The position numbers were made by a program, and so were the translations under genes. Source: Halorussus limi (GTDB lineage Archaea; Halobacteriota; Halobacteria; Halobacteriales; Haladaptataceae). From it: a stretch of 64,000 nucleotides of DNA. The stretch lies in contig NZ_CP096659.1 of the NCBI RefSeq assembly GCF_023238205.1, forward strand, positions 2,807,626 to 2,871,625, written 5' to 3'. Of this stretch, positions 1 through 16,680 are shown in pieces. How positions within the stretch are numbered: the stretch's first letter is position 1; each line of letters opens with the position of its first letter. The notes below the pieces were generated by a model, which saw nothing but the letters and a program-made list of their open reading frames with translations, was not told where the DNA came from and searched no databases.

Positions 1-74
1 GCATCCTATTTTCCGTATCGCGGCCCTCGCTGTGCTGTTTTTGGCCGCGCTCCGCCGTCCGAAACCCCACAACA

Positions 75-548
75 ATGTCCACGACGCAACCCACCTCCAC
101 GACGACCGAGAGCAGTACTGACACGACCGAACCGAAGTACCGCGACGAGGAGTTCCTGCGCGAAGCCTACTGCGAGAAGGGTCTCAGCCAGCGTGAGATT
201 GCCGCGCGATGCGGCTGTAGTCGCGGGGCAATTCGTCACCACATGGACAAGTTCGACATCTCGCCGCGCTCGACGCGCTCGCCGTCCGACCGTCCCGCCA
301 ATTTTGACACGAAAGAGAATGGTTACGAACGGTGGCGGTGTCAGGCTGGCGAAACGGACGACTACGTGTACGTTCACCGCTTACTCGCCACGCTCAAGGT
401 GGACGACCTGAGCGAACTCGAAGGTATGCACGTCCATCACAAGGACGGCCATCCGTTCGACAATCGCCCTGACAACATCGAGGTCGTCAGTCCTGCCGAG
501 CATCGCCAGAAGCACGCCGACGACGAACCCCTCAAAGCCGAGCAGTAA
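75..548 (+). CDS. HTH-HNH protein (homing-type or phage-type endonuclease)
   Basis: 157 residues. After a Ser/Thr-rich head, residues ~22-62 form a helix-turn-helix with the pattern LSQREIAARCGCSRGAIRHH, suited to sequence-specific DNA binding. Residues ~95-148 match the HNH_3 endonuclease pattern: VHRLLA, then HVHHKDG, then N-x-PDNIEVV and a final H-x-x-x-H, with the histidine/asparagine metal-binding positions intact. Such HTH-HNH proteins are common on haloviruses and integrated elements, where they may cut DNA or act in packaging or homing. It lies first in the visible part of the element and points towards the integrase. Function as an active nuclease is inferred from motifs only. Confidence 0.75.
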   Translation: MSTTQPTSTTTESSTDTTEPKYRDEEFLREAYCEKGLSQREIAARCGCSRGAIRHHMDKFDISPRSTRSPSDRPANFDTKENGYERWRCQAGETDDYVYVHRLLATLKVDDLSELEGMHVHHKDGHPFDNRPDNIEVVSPAEHRQKHADDEPLKAEQ

Positions 549-709
549 CCGTTCGGAGGGCCATCTCGCCCGTCCAACCCCACACCCTACGCCGGGAGAA
601 CCGCACTCCACGCGTTTCCACGCGAGAAGCGCCCGTCCCCGCCGTTGCGCGTCGGCGTCGGTCGTGGCCTTCTCGCGTTACTGCCCGAACCAATCCCACC
701 CACCCAATC

Positions 710-916
710 ATGAGCCATCTCCAGAACCGCGAACTCATGCGAGTAATGTTTGTTGACCGAGGAATGTCTGCCCGAGAAATCGCCGACGAGACCGGCGCGA
801 ACGTCGAGACCGTCCGGCGGTGGCTCTTGAAGCACCGACTCGCTATCCGAGGCACGACTACGCACTCGTCCGACGACGACTACAACCCCGACTGGAGTCG
901 TCTCAAGCAGGACTGA
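710..916 (+). CDS. small homeodomain-like HTH protein
   Basis: 68 residues. Nearly the whole protein is one helix-turn-helix: a leading helix (LMRVMFVDRG), then MSAREIADETGANVETVRRW as the turn and recognition helix, then a short acidic tail ending in DWSRLKQD. The pattern resembles the HTH part of the upstream HNH protein (shared REIA core), so the two may be related by domain copying inside the element. It is likely a small DNA-binding regulator of the element. No promoter is obvious; 160 bases separate it from the upstream gene. Confidence 0.65.
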   Translation: MSHLQNRELMRVMFVDRGMSAREIADETGANVETVRRWLLKHRLAIRGTTTHSSDDDYNPDWSRLKQD

Positions 917-1031
917 GCGCGTCGGCGTCGGTCGGCGGCTTATCGAGTTGCCTGCGCAGAAAGAGCGAGAGCGCGTTGTGGCCGTCCCTGCGACCGGAGG
1001 GAGCGACGGCCCCGCGTGGAACTATTCCCGA

Positions 1032-2057
1032 CTACTGCCCCAGTTCGGTCCCTGCGCCGTAGGTTCGCGCGGCGTCGAGCAGGTCTTTGTCGGTGAACTG
1101 AAGGTATTTCTCGGTCGTCTCGATTTTCGAGTGACCCATGAGCTTCTGGAGTCGCCGCGTGTCCATCCCGTTTTTGATGCATTGCACGGCGTAGCTATGC
1201 CGGATAACGTGCGCCGTGATTCTGTCGTGGTCGTTGTCCTGCGCGTCGGTGTAGAGGTATTTCTGTAGCCCGGCGTTGTCGGCGGCCTTCTTTATCATCC
1301 GGTTGACGTGATTTGGGTCAATGCGCTCCGAGTGACTGGTGGGAAACAGGTAGTCGCTCCCGGCAGTTGCGAGGGCCTTACGTTCGACGTTCAGCCACCG
1401 AGTCATGGCCGTATCGAGCGACGACTGATAGCGCACGGTGCGGTTCTGGTGGGTCTTCTCGGCGTGTACGTCGATAGTGCGCCGTTCGGTGTCCAAGTCG
1501 TCAAGCTGGATGTTGACGAGTTCGCCCCGCCGAAGCCCGGTATGATACAGCAGTCGAACTATCAGGTCGTTGCGGGGAATTGGCGACGGGACGTTGTTTG
1601 CCAACTCCCTGATTTCGTCGGGTTCGAGGTACGTCGGGCCTTTCGCCTCTTGCTTTTTCTTCGTCCCGTTCTTCAATGACTCCCAATCTGACAGGTCAAG
1701 GTCTTCAATGGGGTTCTCGGTTGAGGGTAGGTCTTCGTCAATGCGGGGGTCTCGGTCAATCTCCTCAAGCTCCTGATAGAATACGGACAGGGCGGTTTCC
1801 CGAACCCCGATACTGCCGCCTGTATAGCCGCCATTCTGTAGCAGTTGTTCAAGAAAGACTTCGACGTAGCCGGTCGTAGCCTCCCAAATCGACTTCGGTT
1901 CTCGGTCATGCAGGTTTGGGTCATAGTCCTTCTCGCCGGGGTTCTCCAGCCACTCAGCGAAGTCCTGCACGACTTGCGTATAGCGGTTGGCGGTGCTGTC
2001 GGCCTTCTTGTTGGTCTGCCGGTTGTGGAACAGGGAAATGGCGGTATCGCTATCCAT
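1032..2057 (-). CDS. tyrosine recombinase / integrase of the element
   Basis: 341 residues. The N-terminal SAM-like core-binding domain covers ~1-115 and the catalytic domain ~140-335. Catalytic residues are visible: Arg in HTGLRRGEL (~R176), His and Arg in HVIRHSY (~H283, R286), His in LMGHS (~H309) and the nucleophile Tyr in TTEKYLQF (~Y318). The set is complete, so the enzyme should be active. The start is taken as the ATG at 2057, overlapping the stop of the upstream ribbon-helix-helix gene as TGATG; a GTG one codon earlier is possible. It probably integrates the element into the flavin oxidoreductase gene next to it. Confidence 0.9.
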   Translation of the reverse strand: MDSDTAISLFHNRQTNKKADSTANRYTQVVQDFAEWLENPGEKDYDPNLHDREPKSIWEATTGYVEVFLEQLLQNGGYTGGSIGVRETALSVFYQELEEIDRDPRIDEDLPSTENPIEDLDLSDWESLKNGTKKKQEAKGPTYLEPDEIRELANNVPSPIPRNDLIVRLLYHTGLRRGELVNIQLDDLDTERRTIDVHAEKTHQNRTVRYQSSLDTAMTRWLNVERKALATAGSDYLFPTSHSERIDPNHVNRMIKKAADNAGLQKYLYTDAQDNDHDRITAHVIRHSYAVQCIKNGMDTRRLQKLMGHSKIETTEKYLQFTDKDLLDAARTYGAGTELGQ

Positions 2058-2578
2058 CACTCGACCCTCCAGTAGTAGGCTTCGTCGGTCGTGCGGTGCG
2101 TGGCGTCCCTCACTTGCGCCGAGTTCGTGGCGAGTCGTTCGAGCGCGTCGCTCACGTCCGAGGTTCGCGCGCCGATTCGAGCAGACAAGTCCTCGGCGGT
2201 TGCGGCGTCGTTCTCGATTTGCGCCTCGTCGGGTTCCTGTAGTCCCGAGGGCGCGGTCGGCAGTATCTCCAGTAAGACTTGTTCGAGGTCGTAGAGTTCT
2301 TCGTCTCGGTCTTCCCGCCCGATAGCCTCCAGTTCGTCGTGCATCTCGCCGACGGTGCGCTCAAGTCGCGTGAGCGAATCGAGGACTTCCCCGCTGGCTT
2401 CGGTCGCGGGTTGGCCGTCCTCGGCGGCGGTCTGACGGCCCTCGCTGGCTATCTCTTTCTGAACTGAAAGCCGGATAAGGTGGCTGAGGCTGTTGTATTC
2501 TGGTCCTTCGGCGGCGTCTTCCCATTCAGCTTTCACGTCTTCGGCAACCCGAAAGGCGACGGTGGTTTTCTCGGCCAT
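2057..2578 (-). CDS. ribbon-helix-helix / winged-helix regulator coupled to integrase
   Basis: 173 residues from the ATG at 2578. The N-terminus (KTTVAFRVAEDVKAEWEDAA, then a helix LSHLIRLSVQKEI) has the strand-helix-helix pattern of CopG/Arc-type DNA-binding proteins. A linker follows, and residues ~125-173 look like a winged helix (TAEDLSARIGARTSDVSDAL, then a YYWRVE strand). A TATA-like box at 2622-2627 puts transcription start near 2597, downstream of the longer ATG at 2608, so 2578 is chosen. It is translationally coupled to the integrase and may be a recombination directionality factor or an integrase repressor. The same two-gene layout recurs at 44.1-45.6 kb. Confidence 0.7.
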   Translation of the reverse strand: MAEKTTVAFRVAEDVKAEWEDAAEGPEYNSLSHLIRLSVQKEIASEGRQTAAEDGQPATEASGEVLDSLTRLERTVGEMHDELEAIGREDRDEELYDLEQVLLEILPTAPSGLQEPDEAQIENDAATAEDLSARIGARTSDVSDALERLATNSAQVRDATHRTTDEAYYWRVE

Positions 2579-2609
2579 CGTATTTCGACCATCTCGGGCC
2601 GTCCCCATA

Positions 2610-2665
2610 GTGTTTGCGTTGTTTATACTGGACTGGCGAGTTGTGCCAGTACTCCTGCGACCGCG
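2610..2665. other. probable element-host junction (attR) inside the OYE gene
   Basis: Homology to Old Yellow Enzyme proteins begins at the Cys codon at 2644 (CQYS), while the frame upstream of 2614 is closed by a stop at 2608-2610. In relatives this motif is preceded by a conserved SPM and about 24 more residues. The recombination core is therefore probably within or just after the codons for CQYSC, where element and host share sequence. The matching attL is not in the window. Confidence 0.5.
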
Positions 2666-3660
2666 ACGGACTCGCCACCGACTGGCACGAGGTCCACCTC
2701 GGGAGTCGGGCCACCGGCGGCGCCGGCATCGTGATGACCGAGGCGACCGCGGTCGAACCTCGGGGCCGCATCACGCCCCACGACTTGGGTATCTGGAGCG
2801 ACGACCACGCCGACGCCCTCGCACCGGTCGCCGAGTTCATCTCGGAGCGGGGCGCGACGCCCGCCATCCAACTCGCCCACGCGGGTCGGAAGGCCAGCAA
2901 GACCCGGCCGTGGGACGGCAGCGTTCCGCTGCAACCGGACGAAGGCGGCTGGGAGACCGTGGCACCGAGCGCCGACCCCTACCCCTACGAGGAGGGCGAG
3001 GCGCGGACCCGGAAGATGGACCGCGACGACATCGAGGCGGTCACGGACGCCTTCGTCGCCGGGGCCGAGCGCGCGCTCGACGCGGGCTTCGAAATCGCGG
3101 AGGTCCACGCCGCGCACGGCTACCTGCTCCACGAGTTCCTCTCGCCGGTGACGAACCACCGCGACGACGAGTACGGCGGCGACTTCGAGTCGAGAACCCG
3201 ACTCGTCCGCGAGGTCACCGCCGCCGTCCGGGAGGTCTGGCCGGGCGACAAGCCCGTCTTCGTCCGGGTCTCGGCGACCGACTGGTTGCCCGACCGCGAG
3301 TCGTGGACCGTCGAGGACACCGCCAGACTCGCGCCGCTGCTCGCCGAGGCGGGTGCCGACCTCGTGGACGTGAGCGCCGGCGGCACCCACCCCGACCAGC
3401 AGGTCCCCCAGACGGGACCGAACTATCAGGTCCGGTACGCCGAGCGCGTCGGCGAGGCGACCGAGGCGCTGGTCGGCGCTGTCGGCGGAATCACCGAACC
3501 CAAGCAGGCCGACGCGCTGATTCGCAACGACCGCGCCGACCTCGCCATCGTCGGCCGGGAACACCTCCGGGACCCGTACTTCGCGCTCCACGCCGCCGAG
3601 GAGTTGGGCGCGACCGACCGCGTGGAATGGCCGGTCCAGTACCGGCGCGCGGCGGAGTAG
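2614..3660 (+). pseudogene. 5'-truncated NADH:flavin oxidoreductase (Old Yellow Enzyme, YqjM type)
   Basis: The frame covers all of an OYE TIM barrel except the first ~25 residues. Visible YqjM-type motifs are CQYS (flavin-modulating Cys), LAHAGRKA, VHAAHGYLLHEF (substrate-binding His pair), a YGG loop, FVRVSATDW, and VGREHLRDPYFA (phosphate-binding). Beyond the lost N-terminal strand the sequence shows no stop or frameshift. The only start-like codon is a TTG at 2614 derived from the element side, giving 12 foreign residues. The family reduces activated C=C bonds with FMN and NAD(P)H. Without the first strand, folding and flavin binding are doubtful, so I call it interrupted, although a low-level fusion product is possible. 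Confidence 0.8.
2622..2627 (-). promoter_or_regulatory. TATA box of the RHH-integrase operon
   Basis: TATAAA read on the minus strand. It lies ~27 bases before a predicted transcription start at ~2597 and sets the RHH start codon at 2578. It sits right at the element border, so expression does not need host DNA. Confidence 0.5.
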
Positions 3661-11428: not shown

Positions 11429-11734
11429 ATGGGGGAAGACAAAGACATCAGCGACGTTTCGGGGCTTCCGGACGAACTCGGCATCGACGAGGACCTCGGA
11501 CGGGCCGAACAGCAACTCACGGTCCGCGTCGAGGAGCGGACCTACGGCAAAGCGGTGACTATCGTGGAGGGGTTCGACTCCACCTCGGTGGACGTAGGCG
11601 ACCTCGCCTCGCAACTCAAGAGCAACCTCGCCACCGGCGGGACCGTCGACGAGGGCCGCATCGAACTACAGGGGGACCACCGCGAGCGCGCCGCCGACCT
11701 GCTCCGCGACGAAGGCTTTCAGGTCGGGGGGTAG
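11429..11734 (+). CDS. translation initiation factor aIF1 (SUI1/eIF1)
   Basis: 101 residues, the usual archaeal size. SUI1 hallmarks are the start of the domain at ~30 (QQLTVRVEERTYGKAVTIVE), DVGDLASQLKSNLATGGTVD and IELQGDHRERAADLLRDEGF. The factor binds the 30S subunit near the P site and keeps start-codon selection accurate. The ATG at 11429 follows a stretch with no TATA that I can identify. Its last ~70 bases overlap the 3' end of the convergent membrane protein gene (11666-12202). Confidence 0.9.
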   Translation: MGEDKDISDVSGLPDELGIDEDLGRAEQQLTVRVEERTYGKAVTIVEGFDSTSVDVGDLASQLKSNLATGGTVDEGRIELQGDHRERAADLLRDEGFQVGG

Positions 11735-16500: not shown

Positions 16501-16680
16501 TCAGACCGCTCGCCCGCGCCGCGACAGTCCTATCAGCACCGACCCCGCGGCCAGCACGAGAACTGCCGCCGACAGTAGCAGCGTGGTGTACGCGAGGTTC
16601 AACACCAGCGGTGCGAACAGGACGAGCGTCCCGACGACGATGAGTCCGACCCCGCCCCAGAGTTGCGTGTCGTCGTCCAT
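16501..16680 (-). CDS. 59-residue two-helix membrane protein
   Basis: The frame reads MDDDTQLWGG, then helix 1 (VGLIVVGTLVLFAPLVLNLA) and helix 2 (LLLSAAVLVLAAGSVLIGLS), ending RRGRAV. The C-terminal segment LAAGSVLIGLSRRGRAV resembles LAAGAVLIGTAEDGRPV of the protein at 17980-18162, so the two are paralogues. They flank a Tat lipoprotein gene on the same strand. Function is unknown; the repeated pair suggests a local duplication. Confidence 0.65.
   Translation of the reverse strand: MDDDTQLWGGVGLIVVGTLVLFAPLVLNLAYTTLLLSAAVLVLAAGSVLIGLSRRGRAV

Follow-up and report, generated by a model that had tools for sequence, protein, structure and literature searches.

The window analysed here, a 64,000-bp stretch of the Halorussus limi genome (G000:C1:2807626-2871625), holds near its left edge a plus-strand open reading frame (2614-3660) of the Old Yellow Enzyme (OYE) family (Oxidored_FMN PF00724, E 3.3e-57). 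The Pfam profile is matched from position 22, and the nearest NCBIfam models, PRK08255 and NamA, both scored below their own cut-offs. Homology starts at the CQYS motif, whose Cys codon, TGC, lies at 2644-2646; the NamA/YqjM-like OYE body recognized by the Pfam and NCBIfam matches (2644..3660, plus strand) comprises 338 codons and is without the first 25. Among the solved relatives listed, those closest to this body are mostly of the NamA, YqjM, chromate-reductase and xenobiotic-reductase types; they align to it only from about residue 22-24 of the chain, or later, indicating an extra N-terminal stretch in them that is absent here.

A search for the missing 5' end, covering 60 kb upstream, located it on the same contig at L031:15407-15517 (genome C1:2805406), 2.2 kb before the window start. 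This piece encodes MTDDLFAALSIRDAEIRNRVMVSPMCQFSLNEYIQR-stop, i.e., 25 native codons up to the junction Met followed by CQ and an element-derived tail. The first-pass annotation had read the OYE frame as short of its first ~25 residues, with homology from CQYS, and had expected the lost 5' end upstream, beside the other end of an inserted element; both expectations were borne out, the piece adjoining the left end of the element just outside the window, 4,788 bp left of the body. Joining the window's flanks in silico yields an OYE frame of 363 aa; in relatives, the sequence corresponding to the upstream flank runs directly into OYE (88% identity to G010 over 341 bp). Two further OYE-like homologues are encoded in the same genome; they are distant (33% and 32% identity) and might lessen the cost of the interruption.

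The inserted element measures 4,788 bp (genome 2805479 to 2810266), of which 1..2641 falls inside the window; its left-hand limit, L031:15480 (genome C1:2805479), precedes window base 1 by 2,147 bp. The same 8 bp, TGTGCCAG, form the attR core at the junction of element and OYE body (2642..2649, plus strand) and the left copy outside the window (L031:15480-15487), which supplies the predicted matching repeat; the core keeps a fixed register in nine related elements. At the two junctions of the present element the exact repeat extends to 9 bp, TGTGCCAGT, and the attR-type string has a single occurrence in the genome assembly. The element's right end (2612..2641, plus strand), composed of a conserved arm, GTTTGCGTTGT (2612-2622), and an inner half-site up to the core, is an imperfect inverted repeat of the left end (L031:15488-15518).

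On the minus strand the element encodes a ribbon-helix-helix (RHH)-like protein (2060..2578) and, directly after it, a 341-aa, XerA-like tyrosine integrase (1032..2057, also given as 1035-2057), in an operon that runs away from OYE. The integrase matches PF00589 (E 6.9e-35), with NCBIfam XerA_Arch below cut-off. The catalytic set of tyrosine recombinases is R-K-H-R-H-Y; R176, K201, H283, R286, H309 and Y318 are invariant in seven aligned sequences, and the element's integrase carries the canonical residues. The start of the RHH-like protein was placed by homology at 2578, the longer reading frame starting at 2608, and in an alignment of seven homologues the other six begin at the M of MAEKTTVAF, MGEKTTVAF or MAENTTVAF. 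The protein is predicted to contain a coiled coil, and its C-terminal part is winged-helix-like. As it has no Pfam match, the name RHH is a reading of its sequence, and its structure model is of low confidence (mean pLDDT 62), too weak for a fold search. Most likely it would serve as a DNA-binding helper, directionality factor or repressor, and it would not set the target.

The remaining genes are cargo on the plus strand: an HTH-HNH endonuclease-like protein (75..548; HNH_3, E 3.7e-9; PHROG 7545 HNH endonuclease, E 1.8e-36) and a 68-aa HTH protein (710..916) with a weak HTH_23 match under the curated cut-off. The DNA left of OYE had been called element-like for its RHH, integrase, HTH and HNH-HTH genes, and all of these reading frames are present, the RHH by sequence reading. 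No capsid or replication genes were found in the element reading frames searched, and ~1.2 kb at the left end are without a clear gene. Two perfect palindromes, GGTATATATACC, lie inside the element at L031:16532-16543 and 16615-16626, 83 bp apart and beside a 22-bp near-repeat; they are possible promoters or an origin. A defence role was dropped, the PADLOC matches being weak HNH or HTH similarities. A tRNA attachment site was likewise dropped, since neither a tRNA gene nor an Rfam match was found in the element's vicinity; a tRNA-like stretch suspected by eye at ~L031:17300-17420 gave nothing.

To compare the locus with element-free relatives, OYE was surveyed in 40 genomes, 35 of which had a match, and the 30 loci given were inspected, one being the window's own. 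All 29 others retain the N-terminus before CQYS, including 16/16 from the same genus. Among the orthologues inspected, the same short N-terminus was seen elsewhere only in two, both with a related element inserted at the same codon. Separately, OYE homologues in two further genomes of the survey, G012:C156:13914-14892 and G023:C2:44466-45475, match in two pieces with a break inside, which may reflect a frameshift, an assembly error or another insertion.

With a direct-repeat core at both ends, an interrupted target and empty sites in relatives, the locus has the features of a site-specific integrative element. We conclude, with a probability of roughly 0.93, that the 4,788-bp insert is an integrative element belonging to a haloarchaeal integrase-RHH family and was placed in OYE site-specifically by its own tyrosine integrase.

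The same insertion was found twice more. A survey of 391 genomes for the integrase gave matches at E 1e-35 or better in 51 of them; apart from the window's own, six of these show 54-65% identity. Two of the carriers, Halobacterium salinarum DSM 3754 (L071) and Halovenus rubra (L072), have related elements, with integrases ~65% identical to that of the window, that split OYE at the same codon. In both, the OYE 5' fragment was found at the far end of the element, and the joined flanks give OYE frames of 366 aa (L071) and 365 aa (L072). The three OYE carriers span three archaeal families. That three carriers share one arrangement might suggest an old split gene, interrupted before the host lineages parted and inherited vertically. 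Against this, the same-genus loci inspected are intact in 16 of 16 cases and so are congeners of the other carriers, namely L135, L138 and L140 for Halobacterium and L137 for Halovenus; the Halobacterium and Halovenus integrases are 97% identical whereas the OYE bodies of their hosts are only ~62% identical. The intact OYE genes in close relatives refute vertical inheritance, to which we give practically no credence, and the disparity in identity is a sign that the element moved between families recently.

Further genomes yielded another two close elements (L148 and L149). In 125 genomes of another family no close element was detected at E 1e-80, and viral contigs gave no relatives by integrase alone, integrase alignment or RHH alignment. 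Scanning genome contigs with a single sequence found no relatives; the scan with an alignment named four of the carriers, a fifth match being a distant bacterial recombinase. The phage and plasmid collections held only distant integrases, the best on a Natrinema plasmid at 34% identity.

The nine close elements share arms, ACAGCGTAAAC or close variants, inverted at both ends, with 19 bp separating the core from the arm on the right and 20 bp from that on the left. When the 8-bp cores were paired in this fixed register, eight of the nine elements matched at 8/8 positions and one (L075) at 7/8. As controls, 64 mismatched core pairings agreed at 2.9 positions on average and never at more than 5, and other registers of the same pairs at no more than 6, save for one repeat-driven 8 in L075; core sharing in the fixed register is therefore well beyond chance. 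The matching of the ends also continues past the 8 bp, by 7 extra bases in L074, 6 in L149, 5 in L148 and 4 in L073. The one-base difference between the L075 cores in the common register is a point against the core model.

The nine elements interrupt OYE (three), a secretion-type ATPase gene (two) and four other genes. The ATPase target was recognized for L074 (PF00437), and L149 matches the same gene at 93%. L073 sits at the very 3' end of menB (NCBIfam equivalog); by eye, the element end (L073:5884-9603) seems to restore the last residue and stop of menB, and the gene seems spared. Close relatives L075, L076 and L148 lie in three different genes, the target of L075 receiving no name from Pfam or NCBIfam. 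Where elements share a gene, the two ends of each carry a common synonymous base (TGTGCCAG or TGTGTCAG; TGAGGTAA or TGAGGTAG).

Cores of ~8 bp that differ between the close elements L075, L076 and L148, together with the matching synonymous base at both ends of same-gene elements, would also be expected if a transposon or another process had left an 8-bp target-site duplication, with the integrase a mere passenger. We regard this as very improbable: the same codon is used in three archaeal families, no DDE transposase match above the curated cut-off appeared in the reading frames searched, matching goes past 8 bp in several elements, and the OYE insertions cluster according to their integrases. 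In the tree of integrases, the three from OYE elements fall together (88/91 for seven rows, 93/95 for nine), as do the two from ATPase elements (99/95). No such OYE cluster is seen in the RHH tree, where the L072 protein is joined to its L074 counterpart (99/99). Thus it is the integrase, not its partner, that follows the target, and for these nine rows the trees are indicative of site choice by the integrase rather than by the RHH protein. The RHH proteins themselves look mosaic: L072:7477-7998 and L074:7477-7998 pair although their integrases do not, so this gene appears to have been exchanged between elements.

The proposal that conserved DNA is the reason the integrase uses this site gained support from 33 OYE genes: of 1,179 stretches of 16 bp, the one centred on the core is the best conserved, though the 8-bp core taken alone comes 29th of 1,187; the ranks at other widths are 3/1,183 (12 bp), 9/1,175 (20 bp) and 37/1,171 (24 bp). 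TGTGYCAG is present in 32/33 of these genes. We hypothesize that the integrase binds both half-sites of the circular element as well as a corresponding OYE site centred on the Met-Cys-Gln codons, that strand exchange would take place within the ~8-bp core, and that the same enzyme could reverse the insertion. The site would be used because the flavin-binding codons of PMCQYS are nearly invariant across haloarchaea.

More tentatively, and with little confidence, we suggest that these are naturally retargetable integrases, a haloarchaeal family in which the half-sites stay constant while the 8-bp core is swapped between insertions, which could make the elements reversible gene switches. It may speak for such flexibility, doubtful as we hold it, that the close relatives L075, L076 and L148 reach different genes, with the OYE and ATPase lineages holding one motif for long. 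Similarly speculative is the view that the core is captured from the target, which would account for the synonymous base common to both ends of same-gene elements.

In the wider integrase-RHH family, an RHH alignment search matched 30 of 392 genomes at 32 places, seven of them the close set; the right flanks of 22 of the other 25 places were read. Four distant elements (L114, L117, L118 and L122) adjoin the aRF1 gene at its 5' end, at ~11,450-11,660 in each, with the integrase on the minus strand; for L117 the gene was identified as a TIGR03676 equivalog. Each of the four provides an ATG in frame together with a short new leader; in 3/4 the left-over 5' fragment, ending in KYE, remains at the far end. 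A TctA-family gene is interrupted at the same motif by L115, L120, L128 and L131, two in each orientation, with both gene halves found in 4/4. An ABC-2 permease gene holds three wider-family elements, and L078 cuts TspO (PF03073).

As for the interrupted gene, the inserted element cuts OYE off from its promoter, start codon and first barrel strand; excision would restore it. Given the loss of the native promoter and first strand, we infer that OYE is inactive while the element is in; judged from the sequences, it is most likely off during that time and restorable by excision. The OYE body shows dN/dS of 0.14-0.23 against relatives, like intact pairs, and relaxed selection on it was thus not seen. 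Its undecayed state fits a recent or reversible insertion and also an expressed shortened protein.

The element could instead supply a new start, so that a shortened OYE is still made and active, as has been proposed for the dusA islands and as the aRF1 elements suggest. The first-pass annotation had raised a chimeric protein started from an element-derived TTG, and this part stands in that an in-frame TTG at 2614 is open in the window copy and gives a 348-aa frame; a TTG also occupies the codon before Cys in 3/3 OYE elements, the OYE body is under unrelaxed constraint, the aRF1 elements provide their ATG in 4/4, and dusA islands are described as providing a replacement first strand (PMC4482086). 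Yet L071 and L072 have in-frame stops just upstream of the junction, leaving only the TTG directly before Cys, so two of the three OYE elements encode no replacement strand; the native first strand is gone, the RHH-integrase operon is directed away from OYE, and the N-terminal stretch of the listed solved homologues is lacking. The chimeric reading is therefore weak, and we consider continued production of an active short enzyme unlikely.

If, as we favour, OYE is switched off by a reversible site-specific insertion, the element works like, yet is distinct from, the bacterial dusA islands, as a comparison with their description suggests (PMC4482086). Shared are the tyrosine integrase and a conserved site near the 5' end of a flavin TIM-barrel gene whose first strand is cut off; unlike those islands, which are described as bacterial, typically 30-60 kb and supplying a replacement strand (PMC4482086), the present elements are archaeal, 3-5 kb long and without such a strand in 2/3. 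Membership among dusA-type islands was rejected on the same grounds, no first strand being restored and in-frame stops standing in 2/3 OYE elements. Protein-gene integration by tyrosine integrases is also known from streptococcal ICEs (PMC4701971). Their integrases, as reported, resemble those here in that one group uses different conserved protein genes, some at 5' ends, with direct repeats, but those elements are bacterial and conjugative and lie mostly at 3' ends, sparing the gene (PMC4701971). A Tn916-like element of low specificity, a type reported to have no direct repeats at its ends (PMC4701971), does not fit the 8-bp repeats in fixed register, and an SSV-type suicidal integrase was rejected because the integrase frame is intact and the core lies outside its gene.

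In archaea, integration is described as occurring mostly at tRNA genes and in some cases in protein genes (PMC8371274). Insertion into a protein gene had been called less usual than insertion at a tRNA, which holds for archaea generally according to that account (PMC8371274) but not here, where protein genes are the usual target of this integrase family. The IntSNJ2 pleolipovirus family likewise has a haloarchaeal tyrosine integrase in an operon with small partners; in SNJ2 the target is a tRNA gene and the partners are coiled-coil and MarR-like, as described (PMC8371274), whereas here they are protein genes and an RHH-like protein. Judged on target (OYE) and partner, an SNJ2-type module was rejected. 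The literature searches run, which covered open-licence papers, listed no report of the OYE insertion site or of the integrase-RHH family rule. While archaeal integrases have been described mainly as users of tRNA genes, the integrase-RHH family targets DNA that encodes conserved protein motifs. The OYE and dusA cases suggest that conserved codons near the beginning of flavin TIM-barrel genes act as protein-gene counterparts of tRNA sites. The family includes elements that share a target as well as close relatives that differ in it, a small natural set for testing how a tyrosine integrase changes target.

A further parallel is the element of ca 10 kb in pilB2, a pilus ATPase gene, of Halobacterium salinarum NRC-1, which has an 8-bp direct repeat and is absent from R1 (PMC10264941, PMC3119063). 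Compared by description only, it resembles L074 and L149, each of which has an 8-bp core and lies within the gene of a secretion-type ATPase; for its loss, its authors are reported to think repeat-mediated deletion more likely (PMC10264941, PMC3119063). The L074 and L149 elements also carry HTH-HNH proteins related to that of the window, and L074 contains a possible M48-type peptidase (L074:9093-9713, minus strand) below the Pfam cut-off.
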